Positions 5,528 to 28,454 of a stretch of DNA of 64,000 nt are shown in pieces (the stretch's first letter is position 1; every line of letters begins with the position of its first letter). Source of the DNA: Neoarius graeffei (lineage: Eukaryota; Chordata; Actinopteri; Siluriformes; Ariidae); NCBI RefSeq assembly GCF_027579695.1, contig NC_083590.1, positions 16,726,656-16,790,655 of the forward strand, read 5' to 3'. The notes below the pieces were generated by a model. It did not search any database, had not been told where the DNA came from, and was given only the letters and a program-made list of their open reading frames with translations. The position numbers and the translations under genes are program-made.

Positions 5528-7137
5528 CAGTGGTGCTTGAAAGTTTGTGAACCCTTTAGAATTTTCTATATTTCTGCATAAATATGACCGAAAACATCAT
5601 CAGATTTTCACACAAGTCCTAAAAGTAGAGAAAGAGAACCCAGTTAAACAAATGAGACAGAAATATTATACTTGGTCATTTATTTAGTGAGGAAAATGAT
5701 CCAATATTACATATCTGTGAGTGGCAAAAGTATGTGAACCTTTGCTTTCAGTATCTGGTGTGACCCCCTTGTGCAGCGATAACTGCAACTAAATGTTTGC
5801 GGTAACTGTTGATCAGTCCTGCACACCGGCTTGGAGGAATTTTAGCCCATTCCTCCATACAGAACAGCTTCAACTCTGGGATGTTGGTGGGTTTCCTCAC
5901 ATGAACTACTCACTTCAGGTCCTTCCACAACATTTCCATTGGATTAAAGTCAGGACTTTGACTTGGCCATTCCAAAACATTAACTTTATTCTTCTTTAAC
6001 CATTCTTTGGTAGAACGACTTGTGTGCTTAGGGCGATTGTCTTGCTGCATGGCCCACCTTCTCTTGAGATTCAGTTCATGGACAGATGTCCTGACATTTT
6101 CCTTTAGATTTCGCTGGTATAATTCAGAATTCATTGTTCCATCAATGATGGCAAGCCATCCTGGCCCAGATGCAGCAAAACAGGCCCAAACCATGATACT
6201 ACCACCACCATGTTTCACAGATGGGATAAGGTTCTTATGCTGGAATGCAGTGTTTTCCTTTCTCCAAACATAACGCTTCTCATTTAAACCAAAAAGTTCT
6301 ATTTTGGTCTCATCCGTCCACAAAACATTTGTCCAATAGCCTTCTGGCTTGTCCACATGATCTTTAGCAGACTGTAGACAAGCAGCAATGTTCTTTTTGG
6401 AGAGCAGTGGCTTTCTCCTTGCAGCCCTGCCATGCACACCATTGTTGTTCAGTGTTTTCCTGATGGTGGACTCATGAACATTAACATTAGCCAATGTGAG
6501 AGAGACCTTCAGTTGCTTAGAAGTTACCCTGGGGTCCTTTGTGACCTCGCTGACTATTACACGCCTTGCTCTTGGAGTGATCTTTGTTGGTCGCCCACTC
6601 CTGGGGAGGGTAACAATGGTCTTGAGTTTCCTCCATTTGTACACAGTCTGTCTGACTGTGGATTGGTGGAGTCCAAACTCTTTAGAGATGGTTTTGTAAT
6701 GTTTTCCAGCCTGATGAGCATCAGCAACACTTTTTCTGAGGTCCTCAGAAATCTCCTTTGTTCGTGCCATGATACACTTTCACAAACATGTGTTGTGAAG
6801 ATCAGACTTTGTTAGATCCCTGTTCTTTAAATAAAACAGGGTGCCCACTCACACCTGATTGTCATCCCATTGATTGAAAACACCTGACTCTAATTTCACC
6901 TTCAAATTAACTGCTAATCCTAGAGGTTCACATACTTTTGCCACTCACAGATATGTAATATTGGATCATTTTCCTCAATAAATAAATGACCAAGTATAAT
7001 ATTTTTGTCTCATTTGTTTAACTGGGTTCTCTTTATCTACTTTTAGGACTTGTGTGAAAATCCGATGATGTTTTAGGTCATATTCATGCAGAAATATAGA
7101 AAATTCTAAAGGGTTCACAAACTTTCAAGCACCACTG
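5528..7137 (-). mobile_element. Tc1-like DNA transposon, complete ends, TA target duplication
   Basis: A 1,610-bp unit bounded by CAGTGGTGCTTGAAAGTT and its reverse complement, with TA at 5526-5527 and 7138-7139. The terminal inverted repeats extend for roughly 200 bp, and inner copies of the ends (such as GTTCACATACTTTTGCCACT at the right) suggest the IR/DR arrangement. It sits inside the L1 endonuclease region. Its ends are well matched and its transposase has only one stop, so it is fairly young. Confidence 0.93.
5748..6770 (-). pseudogene. Tc1 transposase, one in-frame stop
   Basis: Cut-and-paste transposase of the Tc1 family. ATG at 6770 gives MARTKEISEDLRKSVADAHQ, a paired-like helix-turn-helix region. 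GRPTK follows near residue 60 as the AT-hook-like linker, and then the DDE domain: WTDETK, QQDNRPKH and FNPMEMLW. The second Asp and the Glu are separated by 34 residues, the DD34E spacing typical of Tc1. The open frame ends in a TGA after 286 codons (5910). The same frame then continues without further break to a natural end, GGHTRY, with stop at 5748-5750. The full product would be about 340 aa, the usual family length. This copy therefore lacks its last ~54 residues. Confidence 0.92.
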
Positions 7138-17440: not shown

Positions 17441-18924
17441 CTAAATTCTACCCATTAGTCTAGTGTCTCTCAGATATGTCATAAGGGCTTTAATACTCTT
17501 TCCCTGCATTCCCTCCTTTTTCAGAATGTTATGAATGTCTCCTTCTTTACCTACTTGTTCTAACCATTTTTCCCTATGATCGTTATATTTCTTACAGCAG
17601 AAAAGAATGTGTTCTACATCTTCCTTAACTTGACATTCAGCACAAAGTCCATTAGTTTTCCCTAAAATATGTAGTGTGGCATTGAGGCCAGTGTGTCCTA
17701 GTCTCAGCCTTGTGTATGTAACTTCCACCTTCCTTCCCAGTCCCATTGAAGTGATTCTTTTCCCCCTAATCTGTTGTTGTACATTAAAGTATTGCCTGCC
17801 CTTTGGGTTTGTCTCCCATTCATCTTGCCATCTACTCATAGTTATTGATTTGATAAGAGATTTAGCTTCCCCTTTTCCTAATGGTGTGTGAATTGCAATA
17901 CAGTGATGACCTAAAGCTTCCTTGGCAGTTTTATCTGCAACTTCATTACCCTTGAGGCCTGTATGAGCTGGAACCCAGCAAAATTGAACAGTGAGTTCAA
18001 GATTTCTGAGTTGAGCCAATAGCTGTTTCATTTCAAGAACTAGGTCATCTCATTGCATTTCCAGAGACAAAGCTTTGCAAAACAGAGAGTGAGTCTGTGC
18101 ATATGACTGACCTTAAAGGTTTAACTTCTTCAATCCATCTTAAGGCTGTAATTATAGCAGTTAATTCTACTGAGTATATTGACAAGAGGTTATTCAGTCG
18201 ATATCCATATGTCTTCTTGAGTTCTGATATGCAGATTCCTATGCCACACTGACCATTTTGAGGGTCTTTCGAACCATCTGTGAATATCTGTAGGTAGTCA
18301 TAGAAGGTAGAATTTAAATAATTTTTGCAATGTATTGCAAGGCTTTGTTCGTTGGAGTGGTCTTTCTTTGCTGTAAGTAATACTGTATTAACATCTGGAG
18401 CAGGGAGGATCCATGGTGAGACACTACTCATGGCCAATGCAGAGTTGAACTTAAGATTTTTAAGACCATACTGTCTTGCAGACTCATCAATATTCCTTCC
18501 AAAACCCATAGCTTTTTTGGAGTATTCCCAACAGTTTGTAAGCACTGATATGGCTGGATTGTGAACGCTGCACTGTAATCTGACCCAGTACGTCAATGAC
18601 AGTTTTGTAAATCGTAACTGAAGTGGGGTTTCCTCTGATTCCACTTGTAATGCACTAATGGGAGTTGTCTTAATAGCTCCCAGTGCTATTCTCAGGGCCC
18701 TTGACTGTATTCTTTCTAGTTTCAGGAGGGATGTTTTACAGGCGGAACCATACACTATACAGCCATAATCAATATTTGACCTTATCAATGCTTTATAAAT
18801 ATTAAGTAAGGATTGTCTATCTGCGCCCCGACAGAGACCAGAGACCATTCGCATTAAGTTTAGAACCTTTTTGCACTTTGTTTCGACATATTCAATATGG
18901 TGTTTCCAAGAAAGTTTGTTGTCT
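17441..18924 (-). pseudogene. Nimb LINE RT thumb, RNase H and C-terminal region
   Basis: Two open segments, 18045-18854 and 17441-18031, in different frames with a break near 18040. The first reads IYKALIRSNIDYGCIVYGSA (RT thumb) and then the RNase H start, LQIFTDGSKDPQNGQCGIGI, with CTDSLSVLQ. The second completes RNase H with WVPAHTGLKGNEVADKTAK and ends in a region with CAECQVKEDVEHILFCC, a zinc-finger-like motif common in I-clade LINEs. The natural C-terminus, TRLMGRI, is present. Confidence 0.85.
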
Positions 18925-18926
18925 AA

Positions 18927-19743
18927 TGTAACGGTGTAAATAATAAGTTTTCTTTCCCTTGCTTATTTTTTTTATTTTGAAACTTCACCAATTCCTGATT
19001 TGTCTCTTTAATGTTGTCTAAATGAATACACTGAGAATGTGAACCTGTACTGCCCCTTTAAGGAAATTATTTCCGTTTTCTTGTTCCCATGGTTTTTCCT
19101 CAGTCTGTGATTGCTGTGCTGAGGAAAGGTATGCTTGTTTCGTTGATGAATCATAAAAGTACATATTCTTAGTGTTAAACTCTTACAGATCGTTTATAAG
19201 GTCAAGATTAACATGTAGATAATGATAGTGGACATGCAGCTTAGTATACATACGATGTGAGTTTGTGTTTCTTTTATTTTGTAAGATGGTTTTCAGAAAG
19301 TTTTTCTCTGCTACAGGCTACTCCCGTATGAAGATTGCATGTCAGCCTTTTCTTTTCTTTTGTTTTGCTACGTACAGGTATGTTGAACTCAGTGTATGTT
19401 CATTTTACTTAATGTTTACTTTTGTTGACTATGTTTAGCGTATAGCAGCACTCTTATACTGTATGTTGAGTGAAGTTTCCGTCTGTATTTGCATACAGAC
19501 TTAGCGTGTACAAGCCAGTGAAATATACTGTTGCTCAGTCTGTGATTGCTGTGCTGAGGAAAGGCTACTCCCGTATGAAGATTGCATGTCAGCCTTTTAT
19601 TTTCTTTTGTTTTGCTACGTACAGATATTGCTTTACGCTAAATAAAGCAACCAGTGAGAGAATCAGTGTCCGGCCATTCCCTGCCTAGTTCACAGCACAG
19701 CCACTACCAGACAGAACACAACGCAACGCACAGTCCCGTTGCA
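18927..19743 (+). repeat. 5' LTR of the gypsy element
   Basis: Begins TGTAACGGTG and ends CCCGTTGCA. AATAAA at about 19640 is a plausible poly(A) signal. It contains an internal block present twice, once split by a 188-nt segment (19099-19128 plus 19317-19377) and once continuous (19534-19624). Confidence 0.92.
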
Positions 19744-19744
19744 A

Positions 19745-19757
19745 TGGTGCCGTGACC
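19745..19757 (+). other. Primer-binding site, likely tRNA-His
   Basis: TGGTGCCGTGAC directly after the 5' LTR matches, from memory, the complement of the 3' end of tRNA-His(GTG) over 12 nt. Confidence 0.65.
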
Positions 19758-20165
19758 TTCAGGATCGCCTTCAGATCGACGTCAGTTCGTTCACCGTGGG
19801 AAAGCTGCGCAGGGTTTTCTCCTTGCGTGGCACTGAGGTTTTTTTTTTTTTTTTTGGACAGAGTGACTTTTATCGATCAGTATATTTTTGAGTTTTGTGC
19901 ATCGCCGTGGACTGAGTTTGATGCGTGCACACAGTAAAGACTTTGGTTAATTTTGCTTTGGGTGAAAGAAAAAAAAAGAAAAAACAAACAGTTTAAATGT
20001 TGGACAAGACAGGCTGCATAGCCGATCTGTTAAGGTGTTTGAATATATGCTGAGTTGTATCTTTTGAGATTTCCATTACATATGGTGTTTTGTGCATTTG
20101 ATATCTTTAAGGGTTTTTGCATATAGCATTTTTTTTTTCTCTTCTTTTTTTCTTGTCTGTGTGAC

Positions 20166-21512
20166 TTGATCGCTGGGATAATGGCAGAGGGAGTGACATT
20201 TACTGTTGGGGAAGAGAAAGGCAAAGATGATGACTTTCAGAGCCAGATGGGTGTGGGGAGGGGATATTTTCAATATCCTTTTGAAACCAGTACACCAGGG
20301 CCAGGAAAGAGACCATTAGCTGAACCTGTACTTACCTCCACAAGATATGTAGAACGTCCCATGTCAAGACAAGATCAGAACACAGACATAGGTGCACTCA
20401 TCACAGAGATAGCTGAGAAATTAGGCCAGTCCATCGCAGCACAGCTACAGCCTGATAGGAGCGCACACAGTCTTGAACAGCCCTCAGAAGTGACACTGAC
20501 CAATGTTAAGTTGGTCATGCATTCTGATGCAAGGGAGCCCCCTATCTTTAGGGGCGATGCCTCAGACAAGTTCACAGTTCATGAGTGGGAGACTCTTATG
20601 ACCATGTACTTGAAGAAACGGGCTATCCCAGTTCATGAGCATTCACAAGAAATTCTGGCTAAGCTTATGGGCAAAGCAGGGGATGTGGTGAAGATAAAGT
20701 TGCGCAACGCATCTGTTGATCATACACAGAATCCCACAGTGATCTTTGACATATTGAAACAGCATTTTAGTGTGCACACATACTCGAACATGCCATTAGC
20801 TGATTTTTATAATACCCTTCCAAAACCAGACGAGGACGCCATGGAGTATTGGATCAGGCTTAACAAGACAATGGATATTGCAATCGAGTGTCTGAAAAGG
20901 CAAGGGCGTAGCATTGAAGACCCGAACCATGAGGTCAGCATGATGTTCACTAAGCACTGTCCTGACCAGTCACTTGCAAATGTCTTCAAGTTTAAGTCTG
21001 CAGACAAATGGCTAGCCAGTGAAATTCAGGAACGGCTTGATGAGCATATGCAGGACAAGAAGAGTCGTGCTTCTGTTAAGTCAGCTCAGCCAGATACAGT
21101 GAAGTGCAAGGCCCATTCGCAGTGCCAGGCACCCTTTGTTGACAGTGGGCCTGAGCCAAGACCTCCTACATCTTCAATGCAGTCTTCAGTGTCTTCTGCA
21201 GTTAGTGCCGACAACGACTACATGAAAAGCTTGGTGGGATTGCTGGATAGGTTAGTGATGCAGCAAAGTCAGATACCTGTCAATGTCAGCAACCAGGCTG
21301 CTGCGCCTGTAGCTTTCCGTAGGCCTTGCAGAGTCTGTAGCAAACTCGATCACTCCACAGTGTCACACTGCAGACGGGAGAATAGGTGTCTGAAGTGCCT
21401 TGCACCTGGACATTGGAAGAAAGATTGTACTCAGCGCTTTAGCCAGCAGCGTGCTCCACCTAGTGCGCCTAGTGGCAGGGCAGAGGGGCAGAACCAAAAG
21501 TTAAACTACTGA
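20166..21512 (+). CDS. Gypsy gag-like protein
   Basis: A 448-aa open frame. The middle has a retrotransposon gag-like helical region (DKFTVHEWETLMTMYLKKR, residues near 130-150). The C-terminal part has cysteine-rich zinc-knuckle motifs, including CLKCLAPGHWKKDC near residue 415. The product would form the element's particle and bind its RNA. It is followed by pol in another frame, an arrangement common in this family. Confidence 0.85.
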   Translation: MIAGIMAEGVTFTVGEEKGKDDDFQSQMGVGRGYFQYPFETSTPGPGKRPLAEPVLTSTRYVERPMSRQDQNTDIGALITEIAEKLGQSIAAQLQPDRSAHSLEQPSEVTLTNVKLVMHSDAREPPIFRGDASDKFTVHEWETLMTMYLKKRAIPVHEHSQEILAKLMGKAGDVVKIKLRNASVDHTQNPTVIFDILKQHFSVHTYSNMPLADFYNTLPKPDEDAMEYWIRLNKTMDIAIECLKRQGRSIEDPNHEVSMMFTKHCPDQSLANVFKFKSADKWLASEIQERLDEHMQDKKSRASVKSAQPDTVKCKAHSQCQAPFVDSGPEPRPPTSSMQSSVSSAVSADNDYMKSLVGLLDRLVMQQSQIPVNVSNQAAAPVAFRRPCRVCSKLDHSTVSHCRRENRCLKCLAPGHWKKDCTQRFSQQRAPPSAPSGRAEGQNQKLNY

Positions 21513-21535
21513 GCCCACACCTTGAGGGGGGTGGT

Positions 21536-24500
21536 GTGGGTGAAAAGACTGAATCCCTCAATGAAGATTCTGACTTGATTAGTGTGTTTGAAGAGAGTAT
21601 GGCTAATGCAACTAAGGGGTCAAAGGTCATCATCCAATCTAGCCAGAAGATCCAGGCATTCAGTGAGCTTTTCTATATTCCTGTTGTTATCAACCACCAA
21701 GTCCAACTTGAAGGCATGCTAGACTCAGGCTCCATGGCGTGTACCATCAGTGGACCGGCAGTGGAGAAGCTTAGATGCGCTGGTGTCTTGCCTGAAAAGC
21801 AGCATCCGGAGGAGAACATTGTGCTAATAGGTTGTGGGGGTCGGCAAACTCAACCAGAAGGGCTTTATGAGTTAAAGATCCAGATTTATGGCACATGCTG
21901 CATCGTACCCACTTTAGTTGTCCCATCTCAGCCAGATGACCTCATAATTGGGTCAAATGTCATCAAACACCTGATGCATGATTTAAAAAGTGACAGTAAA
22001 TATTGGGACATTGTGTCCAGTTACAAACATCAGTCTAATCCTGACATTGACCACTTTTTGTCAATGTTTACCAGTGTTGAGCAGTGGAAGGGGCAAGAGA
22101 TTCCTGAGAAGGTTGGAACGGTTAAGCTTACCCAAGCAGTCACTCTCTTGCCCAGACATGAACACCTTGTCTGGGGCAGACTTCCTCCCAATGTGCCGAT
22201 GTCACCAGGTAGCACAGTTATGGTGGAGCCGACTGGATCCAAAGCTCAGCCACGGGGTGTCCTTGTTGGCCGTCTCGTCACACCTCTATGGGGTGACAGG
22301 TGGGTGCCCATGACCGTCGTGAACCCTTCAGAGAAACCTATCACATTGAAAAGAAATTGCAAGATGGCCGACGTGTATCCATGTTTGGCATTAGAGGATT
22401 TTGATGTCTTTCAGGGCTTACATGTCGTCTCAGAGAAACAACAGCCAGACCCTTCTCACAGTTCATGTTCTGGCTCCCAACCTGCAGCTGCGCTGGCAGA
22501 GTTAGGCTTGGCTGACATCAAGATCGACTCCTCTCACATAAGTGAAAGTTGCAAGAATGAGCTTGATCAGTTACTTGCAGAGTTCCAGGACATTTTTTCA
22601 AAACATCCATTGGACTGTGGTGAAGTTAAGGAGTTCACTCACCGCATTCGTCTGACTGATGACCGACCATTTCGCTTACCATACCGGAGAGTGCCTCCCG
22701 CACATTATCAGAAGCTGAGGCAAGTGCTTACAGAAATGGAAGAAAGAGGAATCATTCGGAAGTCCACAAGTGAATATGCATCGCCTCTGGTAATGGTGTG
22801 GAAAAAGGATGGGGGTCTACGAATATGTGTCGATTTCAGATGGTTGAATGCACGAACTCTGAAGGATGCTCACCCGTTGCCACACCAATCAGATTGTCTG
22901 GCTGCTTTGGGTGGCAACTGCTTCTTTAGTACAATGGATCTCACTTCAGGGTTTTATAATATCCCTATGCATGAGGATGACAAAAAATACACGGCATTTA
23001 CAACACCTCTTGGATTACACGAATATAATCGCATGCCACAAGGACTATGTAACAGCCCTGCTTCCTTTATGAGGATGATGATGGGAATCTTTGGGGATCT
23101 GAATTTCTCTAAGCTGCTGTGCTACCTCGATGATCTTTTAGTCTTTGCACCCTCAGAGAGTGAGGCTTTGTCCAGATTGCGCACAGTGTTTGAGAGACTG
23201 AGAGAGAACAACCTAAAATTGGCCCCAAGGAAATGCCATCTATTGCAGAAGGAAGTGAGGTTCTTAGGGCATGTTATTAATGCGGAGGGCGTATCTGTGG
23301 ACCAAGCAAAGGTGGAGGTCATTAGCAACATGCCTGTACAGAGTCTCATGGAGCATGATGGGTGTACACCCTCAGTGCAGAAGATTAAGTCTTTTCTTGG
23401 AATGGTATTTTACTACCAACATTTCATTCCTAACTGTTCTGCAACCGCAAAGCCTTTGTTTGCTCTTACCGCAGGACAGAAAAGGAGAGGACGCTTGACT
23501 AAAGACAAGAAATTCCAGGGGGTGTATCGCAAACTTACTCCAGCAGACTGGACAGAGGAGTGTAATGACGCCTTTAATAAGCTGAAAGCCATGCTGCTCG
23601 ATTGCGTAGTCCTTGCTCACCCAGACTTTGAGCGGCCTTTTATCCTCTCAATTGACGCTTCATTGGATGGACTAGGAGCGGTCCTTTCTCAAGTGTCTGA
23701 GGGAGAATCGAAAGCCAGGCCAATTGCTTTTGCAAGTAAGACCCTTAGTGCATCACAAAGGAAATATCCTGCTTATAGACTGGAGTTTATGGCCCTGAAA
23801 TGGAGTGTGTGTGAGAAGTTCAGCCACTGGTTGAAGGGACATAGCTTCACAGTCTGGACGGACAATAACCCACTTACTTACCTTCTGACAAAGCCCAAAC
23901 TGGACGCCTGTGAGCTTCGGTGGGTGTCCAAACTTGCCTCCTACTCCTTTGACCTCAAACACCTCCCTGGCCAAAGAAATGTGGTAGCCGATGCATTAAG
24001 CAGAGATGTGTTCACCAGGCCAATTAGCCAAAGATTGTTAACGGAGTCCTATGAGTGTCTTAGTCAGGAGGCTAATGAGGTGGGAGAGGAGTCTATACAG
24101 GATGCTTTTAGGGTCAGCTCTCAGCCTCAGATCCTTGAGTCAGTCAACAGTCGTCCGTCCAAGTTTGTGTGTGGTGCTGCTGAAATGAGAGCTCTCTGTC
24201 AGGCCCATTGTGATTCGATTGACGCTGCAGAGTCTCGGGCAATGTGTGTAACTCAACACCTGCAACAGCTGACAAGTTGTCAAGATGCACTGCCCATGAT
24301 CTCTGCTCAAGAGCTTCAGCTGAGCCAGGAGCAAGACCCATACATTTCAAAAGTACTGCCATTTGTCACTGCAAGAAAGTGCCCAAGTAGGCGAGAAAGG
24401 CATGGCGTTCACTCCAAAGTCCTTAGGCTGTTTAAGCAGTTTGACAAACTGGACATCCGAGACAATGTTTTGTACAGGGTGCTAAAAGACTCTGTGTCCA

Positions 24501-26029
24501 AGCAGAAAAGATTTCAATATGTGTTGCCTGAGAGCTTCAAGGATAAGGCATTAAAGGGCCTTCATGATCTTGCTGGACATCAGGGACAGGACCGAACTCT
24601 GTCACTCGCGAGACAGCGCTTCTACTGGCCTAACATGGAGAGCGACATCAGAGAATATGTCCGATGTTGCCAGAGATGTGTTGTCGCGAAGTCGCCAGAT
24701 CCTGCTGCTCGTGCCCCTTTGGAGAGTATCAAGAGCTCGTATCCGATGGAACTTGTATGTATGGATTTTTGGTCAGCAGAGGATTGTAAGCAGTGTTCAG
24801 TGGACGTTCTTGTGGTAACAGATCACTTTACAAAGCTTGCCCATGCCTTTCCCTGCGCCAATCAGACAGCCAAACAAGTGGCCAAGAAACTCTGGGACAA
24901 TGTATTTTGTGTTTATGGGTTCCCCGAGAGAATACATTCTGATCAGGGCACAAATTTTGAGAGCAATCTGATAGCGGAACTCCTCCGTCTGGCTGGTGTT
25001 GCAAAGTCTCACACGACAGCTTATCACCCAATGGGGAACGGTGCTACCGAGCGATTTAACCGTACCCTAGGTAGTATGCTTCGTACTCTGCCCCTTAAAG
25101 CAAAACATCATTGGCCCCAGCAAATTCAGACACTGACATTGGCATATAATGCTACAGTCCATGAAACAACTGGCTACGCCCCTTTCTTTTTGATGTTTGG
25201 GCGGGTTCCTAGACTGCCAGTGGACATCATGTTCAAGCCAGTCATGAATGACCAAGGGGTGGCTGATTATGATACATATGCAAAGTCTCTGCTCACTTGC
25301 TTGAAAAATGCCATGGAGATTGCACAGAAACACTCCACCGCTGAGCAACAGCACCAGACTAGACAGTACAACAAGCGTGTCAAAGGTACTCACTTGGCTG
25401 TGGGAGATCGTGTCCTAGTGGCAAATAAAGGAGAAAGGGGGAAAAGAAAGTTGGCAGACAAATGGGAGGATGGGGTCTACACAGTCATTGAAGCCAATCC
25501 TACTCTTCATGTCTATAAAATAAAGGATGTCACAGGGCATACAAGAACCGTCCACCGGAACTTGTTACTAGAGGTCAATTTTTTGCCTCTCCCTGAGAGT
25601 AATCTGGATGAGAGTGCACAAGATCATGATCAGTCTTTGATCAGCAATGAGTCTGATGAAGATTGTGACAATGATGAGGATATGTCTGCCGTCCAAGTAG
25701 CTCAGGAAAACGACACAAGTGACCTGTTGGCGGAGTCCTCTAGTTCTCCACTTGATGGCTCAGTCGTGCATCATTCACCTAGCTCTGAGACATTGCATGA
25801 GCTTAGTTCAGTAGGCAGTCCAATTAGAGCCAGTGCTGAACACTCACACACATCAGTCGCATCACTTGCAGATACACCACACTCGACACATACTGATGTA
25901 CCTCCTCTTGATCTACCAGATACATGTACGGATCCCAGTAGTAGTGTTAGGACCCGTGCAGGTAGATTAGTGAGATCAGTGAATAGACTAATTGAATCTA
26001 TGGTTCAAAGGCCATTCCTGAAAGTTTAA
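21536..26029 (+). CDS. Gypsy pol polyprotein
   Basis: A 1,497-aa open frame that begins just after gag. Domains in order: an aspartic protease (LDSGSMACTISG, about residue 60-75), reverse transcriptase (FRLPYRRVPP, CVDFRWLN, YLDDLLVF, residues about 380-560), RNase H (SIDASLDGLGAVLS, about 705), a zinc-binding integrase N-terminus (HDLAGHQGQDRT, about 1010) and the integrase core (MDFWSAED, HSDQGTNFE, near 1080-1150), then a C-terminal tail. RT before integrase is the Ty3/gypsy order. No break is seen. Confidence 0.92.
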   Translation: MGEKTESLNEDSDLISVFEESMANATKGSKVIIQSSQKIQAFSELFYIPVVINHQVQLEGMLDSGSMACTISGPAVEKLRCAGVLPEKQHPEENIVLIGCGGRQTQPEGLYELKIQIYGTCCIVPTLVVPSQPDDLIIGSNVIKHLMHDLKSDSKYWDIVSSYKHQSNPDIDHFLSMFTSVEQWKGQEIPEKVGTVKLTQAVTLLPRHEHLVWGRLPPNVPMSPGSTVMVEPTGSKAQPRGVLVGRLVTPLWGDRWVPMTVVNPSEKPITLKRNCKMADVYPCLALEDFDVFQGLHVVSEKQQPDPSHSSCSGSQPAAALAELGLADIKIDSSHISESCKNELDQLLAEFQDIFSKHPLDCGEVKEFTHRIRLTDDRPFRLPYRRVPPAHYQKLRQVLTEMEERGIIRKSTSEYASPLVMVWKKDGGLRICVDFRWLNARTLKDAHPLPHQSDCLAALGGNCFFSTMDLTSGFYNIPMHEDDKKYTAFTTPLGLHEYNRMPQGLCNSPASFMRMMMGIFGDLNFSKLLCYLDDLLVFAPSESEALSRLRTVFERLRENNLKLAPRKCHLLQKEVRFLGHVINAEGVSVDQAKVEVISNMPVQSLMEHDGCTPSVQKIKSFLGMVFYYQHFIPNCSATAKPLFALTAGQKRRGRLTKDKKFQGVYRKLTPADWTEECNDAFNKLKAMLLDCVVLAHPDFERPFILSIDASLDGLGAVLSQVSEGESKARPIAFASKTLSASQRKYPAYRLEFMALKWSVCEKFSHWLKGHSFTVWTDNNPLTYLLTKPKLDACELRWVSKLASYSFDLKHLPGQRNVVADALSRDVFTRPISQRLLTESYECLSQEANEVGEESIQDAFRVSSQPQILESVNSRPSKFVCGAAEMRALCQAHCDSIDAAESRAMCVTQHLQQLTSCQDALPMISAQELQLSQEQDPYISKVLPFVTARKCPSRRERHGVHSKVLRLFKQFDKLDIRDNVLYRVLKDSVSKQKRFQYVLPESFKDKALKGLHDLAGHQGQDRTLSLARQRFYWPNMESDIREYVRCCQRCVVAKSPDPAARAPLESIKSSYPMELVCMDFWSAEDCKQCSVDVLVVTDHFTKLAHAFPCANQTAKQVAKKLWDNVFCVYGFPERIHSDQGTNFESNLIAELLRLAGVAKSHTTAYHPMGNGATERFNRTLGSMLRTLPLKAKHHWPQQIQTLTLAYNATVHETTGYAPFFLMFGRVPRLPVDIMFKPVMNDQGVADYDTYAKSLLTCLKNAMEIAQKHSTAEQQHQTRQYNKRVKGTHLAVGDRVLVANKGERGKRKLADKWEDGVYTVIEANPTLHVYKIKDVTGHTRTVHRNLLLEVNFLPLPESNLDESAQDHDQSLISNESDEDCDNDEDMSAVQVAQENDTSDLLAESSSSPLDGSVVHHSPSSETLHELSSVGSPIRASAEHSHTSVASLADTPHSTHTDVPPLDLPDTCTDPSSSVRTRAGRLVRSVNRLIESMVQRPFLKV

Positions 26030-26339
26030 TGGTTTAGAGATTAACCAAGTTTTTGTTTGATACAGACTTTTACGAAGTACTTTTGGTTTGTTTTTCACAT
26101 GAATAGTAATTAATGGGTATAAGGCCAAGTATTGTATGATGTAACAGGCATCATATTGACAGTATCAAAGGGAATTAAGAGACTTGATCAACCTCTTATT
26201 TTTCTCTTAACCTTGAGTTTGAGGTAACCTTTTGGGGATGATTAGTGGACTAGGTCTAATTTGATCTTGAGCCAGATACCAGTATTAGATACTACCCAGA
26301 TTGTCTATCAGGATATTGGTGAATTTCAGGAGGGGTGTA

Positions 26340-27156
26340 TGTAACGGTGTAAATAATAAGTTTTCTTTCCCTTGCTTATTTTTTTTATTTTGAAACTTCA
26401 CCAATTCCTGATTTGTCTCTTTAATGTTGTCTAAATGAATACACTGAGAATGTGAACCTGTACTGCCCCTTTAAGGAAATTATTTCCGTTTTCTTGTTCC
26501 CATGGTTTTTCCTCAGTCTGTGATTGCTGTGCTGAGGAAAGGTATGCTTGTTTCGTTGATGAATCATAAAAGTACATATTCTTAGTGTTAAACTCTTACA
26601 GATCGTTTATAAGGTCAAGATTAACATGTAGATAATGATAGTGGACATGCAGCTTAGTATACATACGATGTGAGTTTGTGTTTCTTTTATTTTGTAAGAT
26701 GGTTTTCAGAAAGTTTTTCTCTGCTACAGGCTACTCCCGTATGAAGATTGCATGTCAGCCTTTTCTTTTCTTTTGTTTTGCTACGTACAGGTATGTTGAA
26801 CTCAGTGTATGTTCATTTTACTTAATGTTTACTTTTGTTGACTATGTTTAGCGTATAGCAGCACTCTTATACTGTATGTTGAGTGAAGTTTCCGTCTGTA
26901 TTTGCATACAGACTTAGCGTGTACAAGCCAGTGAAATATACTGTTGCTCAGTCTGTGATTGCTGTGCTGAGGAAAGGCTACTCCCGTATGAAGATTGCAT
27001 GTCAGCCTTTTATTTTCTTTTGTTTTGCTACGTACAGATATTGCTTTACGCTAAATAAAGCAACCAGTGAGAGAATCAGTGTCCGGCCATTCCCTGCCTA
27101 GTTCACAGCACAGCCACTACCAGACAGAACACAACGCAACGCACAGTCCCGTTGCA
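26340..27156 (+). repeat. 3' LTR of the gypsy element
   Basis: Same length (817 bp) and, by eye, same sequence as the 5' LTR, with the same split and continuous copies of the internal block (26512-26541 plus 26730-26790, and 26947-27037). A purine-rich AGGAGGGGTG tract precedes it. Confidence 0.92.
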
Positions 27157-27160
27157 CTAA

Positions 27161-27864
27161 CCATAAACCCAAATACTTGAAGCCCTCTCCTCTTTTGAGT
27201 GGATGGTTGTAAAGCAGGACTTTATGTCTCTCTGGAACTTTCTTCCGTGTAAAGTATGTCACTTGCGATTTTTGTACAGAAAACTTAAAACCCCACTCCA
27301 CTCCCCATTGTTCAAGAATATATAAGTCCTTCTGTATTGTTTTAGTAATATATGGAATATTATTGCCCCTTCTCCAAATGACAGCATCATCAGCATACAG
27401 TAGTCCATCATTGATTCTGCTCAAGTTCTCAAAAATGTCATTAATCATAATATTGAATAAAATTGGGCTAATAACACTGCCCTGCGGAATTCCACCTTCC
27501 ACTAAGAACTCTTCTGACTTAGCTTCACCAACTCTAACACTCAAGGTACGTTTTGATATGAAATTTAAAATGTAGTTGTACATCTTCCCTTCAATGCCCA
27601 TTTTCTGTAGTTTAATTAATAGTCCTTCTCTCCACATTGTATCATATGCCTTTTCAATATCCAGAAAGATTGCTACCATAGCTTCTTTCATAGTCAGTGT
27701 CTTCTCTATTTCATTTGTGAGTTTGACCAGTGCATCTGTAGTTGACCTTTGCTTTCTAAAACCTGTTTGATAACCATGGAGTAAGTTATTATATTCCAAG
27801 TAATAGTTAAGCCTAGTTACAACCATCTTCTCCATTAGTTTGCCCAGGTGTGAGGTGAGGGGTA
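27161..27864 (-). pseudogene. Nimb LINE reverse transcriptase, 5' part
   Basis: Open through the RT core: GYQTGFRKQRSTTDALVKL, IFLDIEKAYDTMWREGL, GGIPQGSVISPILFNIMIND and LLYADDAVIWRR (YADD active site), ending at GFKYLGLWL where the gypsy inserted. On the far side of the gypsy the LINE continues with NKLSWKHHIEYV near 18900, so the two pieces were one frame before the insertion. Confidence 0.85.
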
Positions 27865-28454
27865 GCGTCATGAATTCTGGACCTACCGACTTTTTTATAT
27901 TGTGAAAATACGGGATATTTTCGCGAAAATAAAAAAAAAACGGGAAGACAGCGGGAAATAAGTCAAAATAAGGGAGTTTCCCGGGAAAAACGGGAGGGTT
28001 GACAGGTATGCCCGGGGCGGAGTTCCCCAAACACTAAAGTATAATGTCATATTGCATAAAAATTCTTCCCGTTTAACAAAAATGTGCCATCTGATGTTAT
28101 TTTTTACATACCGGCTATCTCAATGGGGCACTTTTATTTCAAATAACTGTGCAGACACCCGCTGTCTTCCGCGGCAAAATAGCTGAACCATTTATTAGTG
28201 CTGTGCATCGCCTGCCCGCTGCTGCCGGCGTCCAAACCAACTCTACACACTTCCGAACGCAATTCACAGAAATATGCGCGCGCGTCTTGGGGACTTTCAC
28301 TATATAACGCAAACATCTCATAACATGTTATTATCTTTGTGTAACCCAGTAGAGAATTGGGTCCAGTTCTATTTTATTTTTCTATAGTTTCCTTACTAAT
28401 TTAATTTCATTTGTTAATCAGCTTGTCAATCAGTTATTTTACACACACACACAA

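Follow-up and report, generated by a model that had tools for sequence, protein, structure and literature searches.

A gypsy-type retrotransposon of Neoarius graeffei whose long terminal repeats hold one block in split and in joined form

Introns in the transcribed repeat of a retroelement are expected to be lost after a few rounds of copying. In the Ty intron assay, as described in excerpts of PMC12786077, which deals with introns of plant long terminal repeat (LTR) elements, RNA splicing followed by reverse transcription removes the intron, and passages of PMC1868081 report that spliced RNA of human immunodeficiency virus type 1 (HIV-1) undergoes reverse transcription. Here we describe a complete Ty3/gypsy-type (Metaviridae) retrotransposon on the plus strand, at positions 18927-27156 of a 64-kb stretch of the Neoarius graeffei genome (contig NC_083590.1, positions 16,726,656 to 16,790,655; the whole stretch is called the window below). 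The element is like others of its class in having identical TG...CA LTRs, a short (4-bp) target duplication, a primer-binding site, a polypurine tract, and gag and pol genes with the order reverse transcriptase (RT)-RNase H-integrase, and it differs from them in that its LTR contains one block both with and without an intron, the two forms having been kept alike. Whereas the spliced HIV-1 RNAs and Ty intron reporters of those excerpts lose the intron, the design of this LTR seems to keep the intron and to store the spliced form as well.

Foamy viruses possess a splice donor in the repeat (R) region, which is used with acceptors further inside the virus. Excerpts of PMC3694450 describe how U1 small nuclear ribonucleoprotein at the R donor suppresses use of the poly(A) signal in the 5' LTR. 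Donor-like sites of the LTR studied here also lie in R upstream of AATAAA, a likeness to the system of PMC3694450 in position only; the R donor described there is the major splice donor, whereas here the putative introns lie wholly inside the LTR with the joined copy beside them. In HIV-1, a poly(A) hairpin represses 5' polyadenylation, as stated in the part of PMC2645353 cited, and the AATAAA of the present LTR likewise falls within a small hairpin, by predicted fold only. As far as their excerpts extend, PMC5542766 and PMC9278108 are not parallels to this LTR, and among the literature matches listed, with subscription journals mostly outside their scope, there was no published case of an intron within an LTR or its R region, or of strong-stop DNA made from a spliced R.

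The split and joined copies and their putative splice-site borders

The 5' LTR contains a 30-nt and a 61-nt piece (exons 1 and 2 of copy 1; coordinates in Table 1) separated by 188 nt that begin GTATG and end CTACAG. Joined, these pieces match copy 2 at 90 of 91 positions, the sole mismatch being a C in copy 1 that is an A in copy 2, at block position 66. Copy 2 starts 156 nt past the end of the split copy, and the two are followed by different sequences, GTATGT at 19378 after copy 1 and ATATT after copy 2. An earlier reading made from the letters of the window (the sequence-only reading) had reported these coordinates, the gap, the single difference and the unlike followers, and all were confirmed, as was its report of the same structure in the 3' LTR, which is identical to the 5' LTR at 817 of 817 nt. 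Of the four phasings of the 188-nt gap that are equally compatible with the duplication, just one gives GT-AG. A processed copy made by a long interspersed nuclear element (LINE) would be expected to have a poly(A) tail and a target duplication; the joined copy has TTGCT on either side, with no poly(A) seen. A common 5-mer occurs in 8% of random flank pairs, and this direct repeat is barely above chance.

Splice sites were scored with hand-written matrices that follow general vertebrate frequencies at donors and acceptors. On this scale the strongest donor of the LTR was CAG/GTATGT at the end of copy-1 exon 2 (19378), the second strongest AAG/GTATGC at the end of exon 1 (19129), and the strongest acceptor that at 19316 (score 10.09). 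The three borders of the block coincide with the top splice sites of the LTR, which favours an origin of the joined copy from spliced RNA. The fraction of window positions scoring as high as donor 19378 was 0.00011 on the plus strand and 0.00019 on both strands, compared with 0.0006 for donor 19129 and 0.0005 for acceptor 19316; for random borders, with four phasings allowed, the joint chance of the three is about 1e-10. Dinucleotide-shuffled LTRs (300 shuffles) had a mean of 0.24 such donors and 0.32 such acceptors. Intron 1 has GT-AG borders in good context that are kept in relatives, as a spliceosomal intron should.

The probable partner of the second donor is the end of the joined copy at 19624, an option absent from the sequence-only reading. 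A first model assumed an ectopic transfer of strong-stop DNA into intron 2 that destroyed its acceptor, and this was replaced by a version with intron 2 ending at the CTCAG at 19538. That version was rejected in turn and the end placed at 19624, because the CTCAG is a poor acceptor (score -1.96) and the structures of the compact LTRs and of the split-only LTR L032, described below, point to 19624. The joined copy begins CTCAGTC, which fits an initiator; this is weak evidence, as BBCABW occurs 11 times in the LTR, and the stricter TCAGTY, found 67 times in the window, occurs within the LTR solely at the two copies. The initiator-like start of copy 2 is preceded, some 45 nt upstream, by ATTTGCAT, which we take to be an octamer motif and which may mark a second promoter; a perfect 8-bp hairpin, GTCTGTAT/ATACAGAC (19481-19500), encloses this motif.

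Relatives in the same genome and the likeness of the two copies

The genome (2.34 Gb in 38 contigs) was scanned for related LTRs, of which 24, a lower bound for the family, were read, from the best-scoring candidates only, and their structures were assigned by comparing them in BLAST with parts of the window LTR or L027. They form two subfamilies, A (16 LTRs) and B (8 LTRs), and the long arrangement with split and joined copies is present in both. Subfamily A has 10 long LTRs (the pairs of the window, C18, C14 and C9, and the singles L019 and L022) and six compact ones (the pairs on C11, C8 and C20). In five of the eight B LTRs both copies are recognisable (L027, L029, L030, L031 and L024, the last lacking part of its copy-1 exon 1). 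The remaining three are a truncated LTR (L023/L034), a compact one (L028/L033) and a split-only one (L032). In compact LTRs, U3 runs straight into the joined block and then into exon 3, without intron 1 and without the 19378-19624 stretch (L028/L033 has an insertion inside U3); L032 lacks exactly that stretch, the putative intron 2, and has the flanks TATA and TCTA, matching at three of four positions. The interior of the LTR is interrupted in L029, L030, L031 and L033 by stretches of up to about 5 kb.

Pairs of long LTRs differed at 0/817 positions in the window element, 0/817 in C14, 1/818 in C18 and 11/812 (plus two gaps) in C9, and pairs of compact LTRs at 0/382 in C11, 1/378 (plus one gap) in C8 and 4/381 in C20; judged by these differences, both long and compact elements include recent insertions. 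All three complete compact A elements are compact in both LTRs and have 4-bp target duplications (TGAG, TTAG and CAAG), and compaction therefore preceded integration. By variants in U3 and U5, C20 is nearer to L015, L016, L019 and L022, while C11 and C8 group with the window element, C14 and C18. Compact LTRs therefore probably had more than one origin, or else there was exchange of sequence between them and long LTRs.

Between the window LTR and L027, intron 1 is 82% identical pairwise and 75% by BLAST, and the segment between the copies 74% pairwise and 70-72% by BLAST (here and below, insertions in L027 are not counted in the pairwise comparison). Because both segments can be aligned between A and B, the long form looks inherited. 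Identity over 20-nt windows reaches at least 95% between the same two LTRs in two parts of U3, at donor 1 (19119-19141), from the final 61 nt of intron 1 into exon 2 (19256-19348), at donor 2 (19379-19409), and in copy 2 and its left junction (19529-19551 and 19553-19598). In our table of junctions, which leaves out L010 and L012, the window and all 12 other LTRs tabulated with intron 1 (six A, six B) retain its GT and AG, one B donor reading GTTTG. Donor 2 is GT in 6/6 A rows and GTATGTTG in the B rows L024, L025 (same locus as L030) and L029; it is absent in L032, and L023, L026 and L030 were unread there. The AG before exon 3 is present in 15/15 rows.

The two copies have evolved in concert. 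Among 97 alignment columns, 19 (five of them gap columns from two indels) were diagnostic of subfamily by majority in both copies, one was mixed and none was diagnostic of copy position in both subfamilies. This count used nine split and nine joined A rows, with the identical 3' LTR of the window counted once, and four split and six joined B rows; the partial copy 1 of L024, L032 and the compact LTRs were left out. A tree of the copies separated A from B at 100/99, and forcing the 14 split copies together lowered the log-likelihood by 49 and was rejected (p-AU, from the approximately unbiased test, 1e-7), in a comparison devised after the alignment had been seen, with two sets of identical rows left free and a bootstrap that had not fully settled. 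Across the nine A LTRs compared, the copies were identical in six, differed once in two and differed twice in one. Both copies of L022 lack the same 5 nt; the TTTTC tract concerned has also slipped alone in L018 (versus L017).

Copies that had evolved independently since before the split of A and B would differ within an LTR at least as much as A differs from B. The long arrangement is old, being found in 10/16 A and 5/8 B LTRs, and though it is old the copies are alike within each subfamily, which argues for repeated rewriting, apparently from spliced RNA, of the joined copy rather than for its capture on a single occasion. The sequence-only reading had proposed that the LTR was extended by a processed R-region RNA during reverse transcription. 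The joined block does look like the product of spliced R RNA via reverse transcription, and to that extent the proposal is supported, whereas a single extension of the LTR of the window element finds no support in the spread of the arrangement through both subfamilies or in the likeness of the copies in each. The same reading had expected support from relatives with only the split block and refutation from older relatives with only the continuous block. Joined-only LTRs make up 6/16 of A and 1/8 of B and the split-only state occurs in L032, and this comparison is not decisive because all of these are scattered among the long LTRs.

A proposed transfer from spliced RNA, and its alternatives

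We consider it fairly probable, from the structures above, that R contains introns, that the LTR keeps both an intron-bearing and an intron-less R, and that copy 2 is rewritten by strong-stop transfer from spliced RNA. Transcription would start at exon 1 (19099-19102), and introns 1 and 2, the latter with the joined copy inside it, would be spliced from the 5' LTR part of the RNA, giving a 5' end composed of exon 1, exon 2, exon 3, U5 and the primer-binding site. Minus-strand strong-stop DNA made from this end would anneal to copy 2 in the unspliced 3' LTR. As the spliced 5' end has the same sequence as copy 2 continued by exon 3 (save for one base in the window element), the strong-stop DNA would find a full-length partner there, and synthesis would then proceed upstream through the intron-bearing copy 1 and the U3 of the 3' LTR. 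The new element would retain its introns, and its copy 2 would be rewritten from the spliced copy-1 exons of the parent, which is what concerted evolution of the copies requires. Copy 2 would thus act as a landing pad that shields the introns from loss through reverse transcription. A compact intron-less LTR would result if both ends of the RNA were spliced or if the transfer took place onto exon 1 of copy 1, and the compact LTRs without both introns, which include three complete elements, fit such occasional intron loss. More tentatively, we suggest that R is normally closed by splicing, the 5' R being made of the split-copy exons and the 3' R being the stored spliced copy, which would be rewritten each round while the introns are kept.

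If this scheme holds, an LTR that stores the spliced beside the split form shows how introns can persist in a genome that is reverse transcribed, links splicing to first-strand transfer and provides a natural DNA record of RNA splicing, a new twist on how LTR elements copy themselves. One-step changes in LTR length between about 817 and 382 bp within a family would be explained as well; such switching bears on the annotation of solo LTRs and on the dating of insertions.

Several observations weigh against rewriting from spliced RNA. Splicing, the start site and the transfer step are all deduced from DNA, and the octamer upstream of copy 2 could mean that transcription starts there, with no need for splicing. 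The acceptor of intron 2 scores 7.89, compared with 10.09 for that of intron 1, and is exceeded by an acceptor-like site in U5 (19695, score 9.51). In subfamily B, represented by few and decayed copies, L027 has lost donor 2 (CC) and in L031 this donor is disturbed, probably by an insertion, and the split and joined copies differ from each other in L027, L029, L030 and L031. In A, copy 1 of C9 has one or two private changes and copy 2 of the window element its private C to A, present in both window LTRs and in no other aligned row; this change would fit an error made when its copy 2 was last rewritten. Compact elements inserted recently too (C11, with 0/382 differences), so introns are not essential. 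The scheme further needs the 3' LTR to be often left unspliced, for no evident reason, because that LTR carries the same splice sites. Lastly, both compact and split-only LTRs would also be obtainable by homologous recombination or template switching between repeats.

Alternatively, the processed copy may have been inserted once in A and once in B, each time by ectopic transfer of spliced strong-stop DNA and with no routine refreshing, which is the idea of the sequence-only reading applied twice. Such separate captures, which we regard as unlikely, would account for the exact removal of the intron and for the likeness of copies within a subfamily, and the CTCAG shared by the left junctions is a possible recurrent microhomology. 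The junction at which the joined copy lies is nevertheless shared by A and B, with flanks that can be aligned, and none of the 24 LTRs read has the between-copies segment without copy 2. The deletion common to both copies of L022 also speaks against captures without refreshing, with the caveat that the same tract slips alone in L018.

A single ancient origin might instead have been followed by template switching or gene conversion between the repeats, with no present splicing. Direct repeats of 30 and 61 nt can yield exactly the compact form (exon 1 with exon 1) and the split-only form (exon 2 with exon 2). To homogenise exons of which one copy has an intron, however, separate exchanges confined to the 30-nt and 61-nt stretches are demanded, and the position of the splice-site regions among the best-conserved stretches is left unexplained. 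We think recombination of this kind rather improbable.

Insertion of a 188-nt intron-like piece into the upstream copy of a plain 91-nt duplication is very doubtful and was already disfavoured, for it leaves the strongest donor of the LTR at the right border of the duplication unexplained, and intron 1, which had no match below E 0.04 outside the LTRs within the window, is common to A and B while the copies are homogenised. In its favour, intron gain would produce a GT-AG segment with AG/G repeats at its ends, and the compact LTRs could then be the older state. Chance likeness or an assembly artefact has nothing in its favour and is refuted by the presence of the long arrangement in 15 LTRs at 11 loci, the six A loci among them with matching 4-bp target duplications, and by the border chance given above.

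Other features of the element and its surroundings

The features of the element are listed in Table 1. By its LTR features and the order of its pol domains in Pfam (RVT_1, RT_RNaseH, Integrase_H2C2, rve) the element is of Ty3/gypsy type. The open reading frames (ORFs) of gag and pol overlap at 21473-21512 in different frames, pol being at -1 relative to gag, which suggests a frameshift. A strong acceptor-like site at leader position 19861 (a T-run, then GGACAG), the second best of the whole element, might pair with the R donors to give a spliced gag mRNA.

Table 1. Features of the retrotransposon, in window positions
Feature	Positions	Strand	Remarks
Target-site duplication CTAA	18923-18926 and 27157-27160		flanking the element
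5' LTR, 817 bp, TGTAAC...TTGCA	18927-19743	+	identical to 26340-27156
U3, up to the presumed start site	18927-19098	+	in compact LTRs directly abuts the intron-less block
Exon 1 of split copy 1, starts CTCAGTC (initiator-like)	19099-19128	+	presumed RNA 5' end
Putative intron 1, 188 nt, GTATG...CTACAG	19129-19316	+	best acceptor and second-best donor of the LTR
Exon 2 of split copy 1	19317-19377	+	
Putative intron 2, donor CAG/GTATGT at 19378, acceptor TTGCTACGTACAG/ATATT at 19624	19378-19624	+	joined copy inside
Presumed octamer motif ATTTGCAT	19487-19494	+	between the copies; kept in the subfamily-B rows covering it
Copy 2, exons 1 and 2 joined without intron	19534-19624	+	proposed 3' landing pad for first-strand transfer
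Exon 3 (3' part of R) and U5	19625-19743	+	
Predicted hairpin TTGCTTTA/TAAAGCAA	19628-19650	+	encloses the poly(A) signal AATAAA (19641-19646)
Primer-binding site TGGTGCCGTGAC	19745-19756	+	by eye; resembles what we take to be tRNA-His
gag ORF with CCHC zinc finger	20181-21512	+	finger at 21.2 bits, below Pfam's 27
pol ORF, uninterrupted: RT, RNase H, integrase	21473-26029	+	
Polypurine tract AGGAGGGG	26328-26335	+	by eye
3' LTR	26340-27156	+	same split and joined copies (26512-26541, 26730-26790, 26947-27037)

Rfam gave no matches across the window at gathering scores and none on 18900-20200 at E up to 1, and ARAGORN found no tRNA in the window. No relatives were found in viral_contigs by an 18-base pattern or a piece of the RT, nor in genome_contigs by a piece of the integrase or of the RT. 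Judged by eye, the element is inserted in an apparent LINE ORF on the minus strand (17441-18962 and 27098-28033). Also on the minus strand, at 5910-6779, is a long open ORF for a Tc1-type transposase related to Sleeping Beauty (5cr4, E 2e-63).
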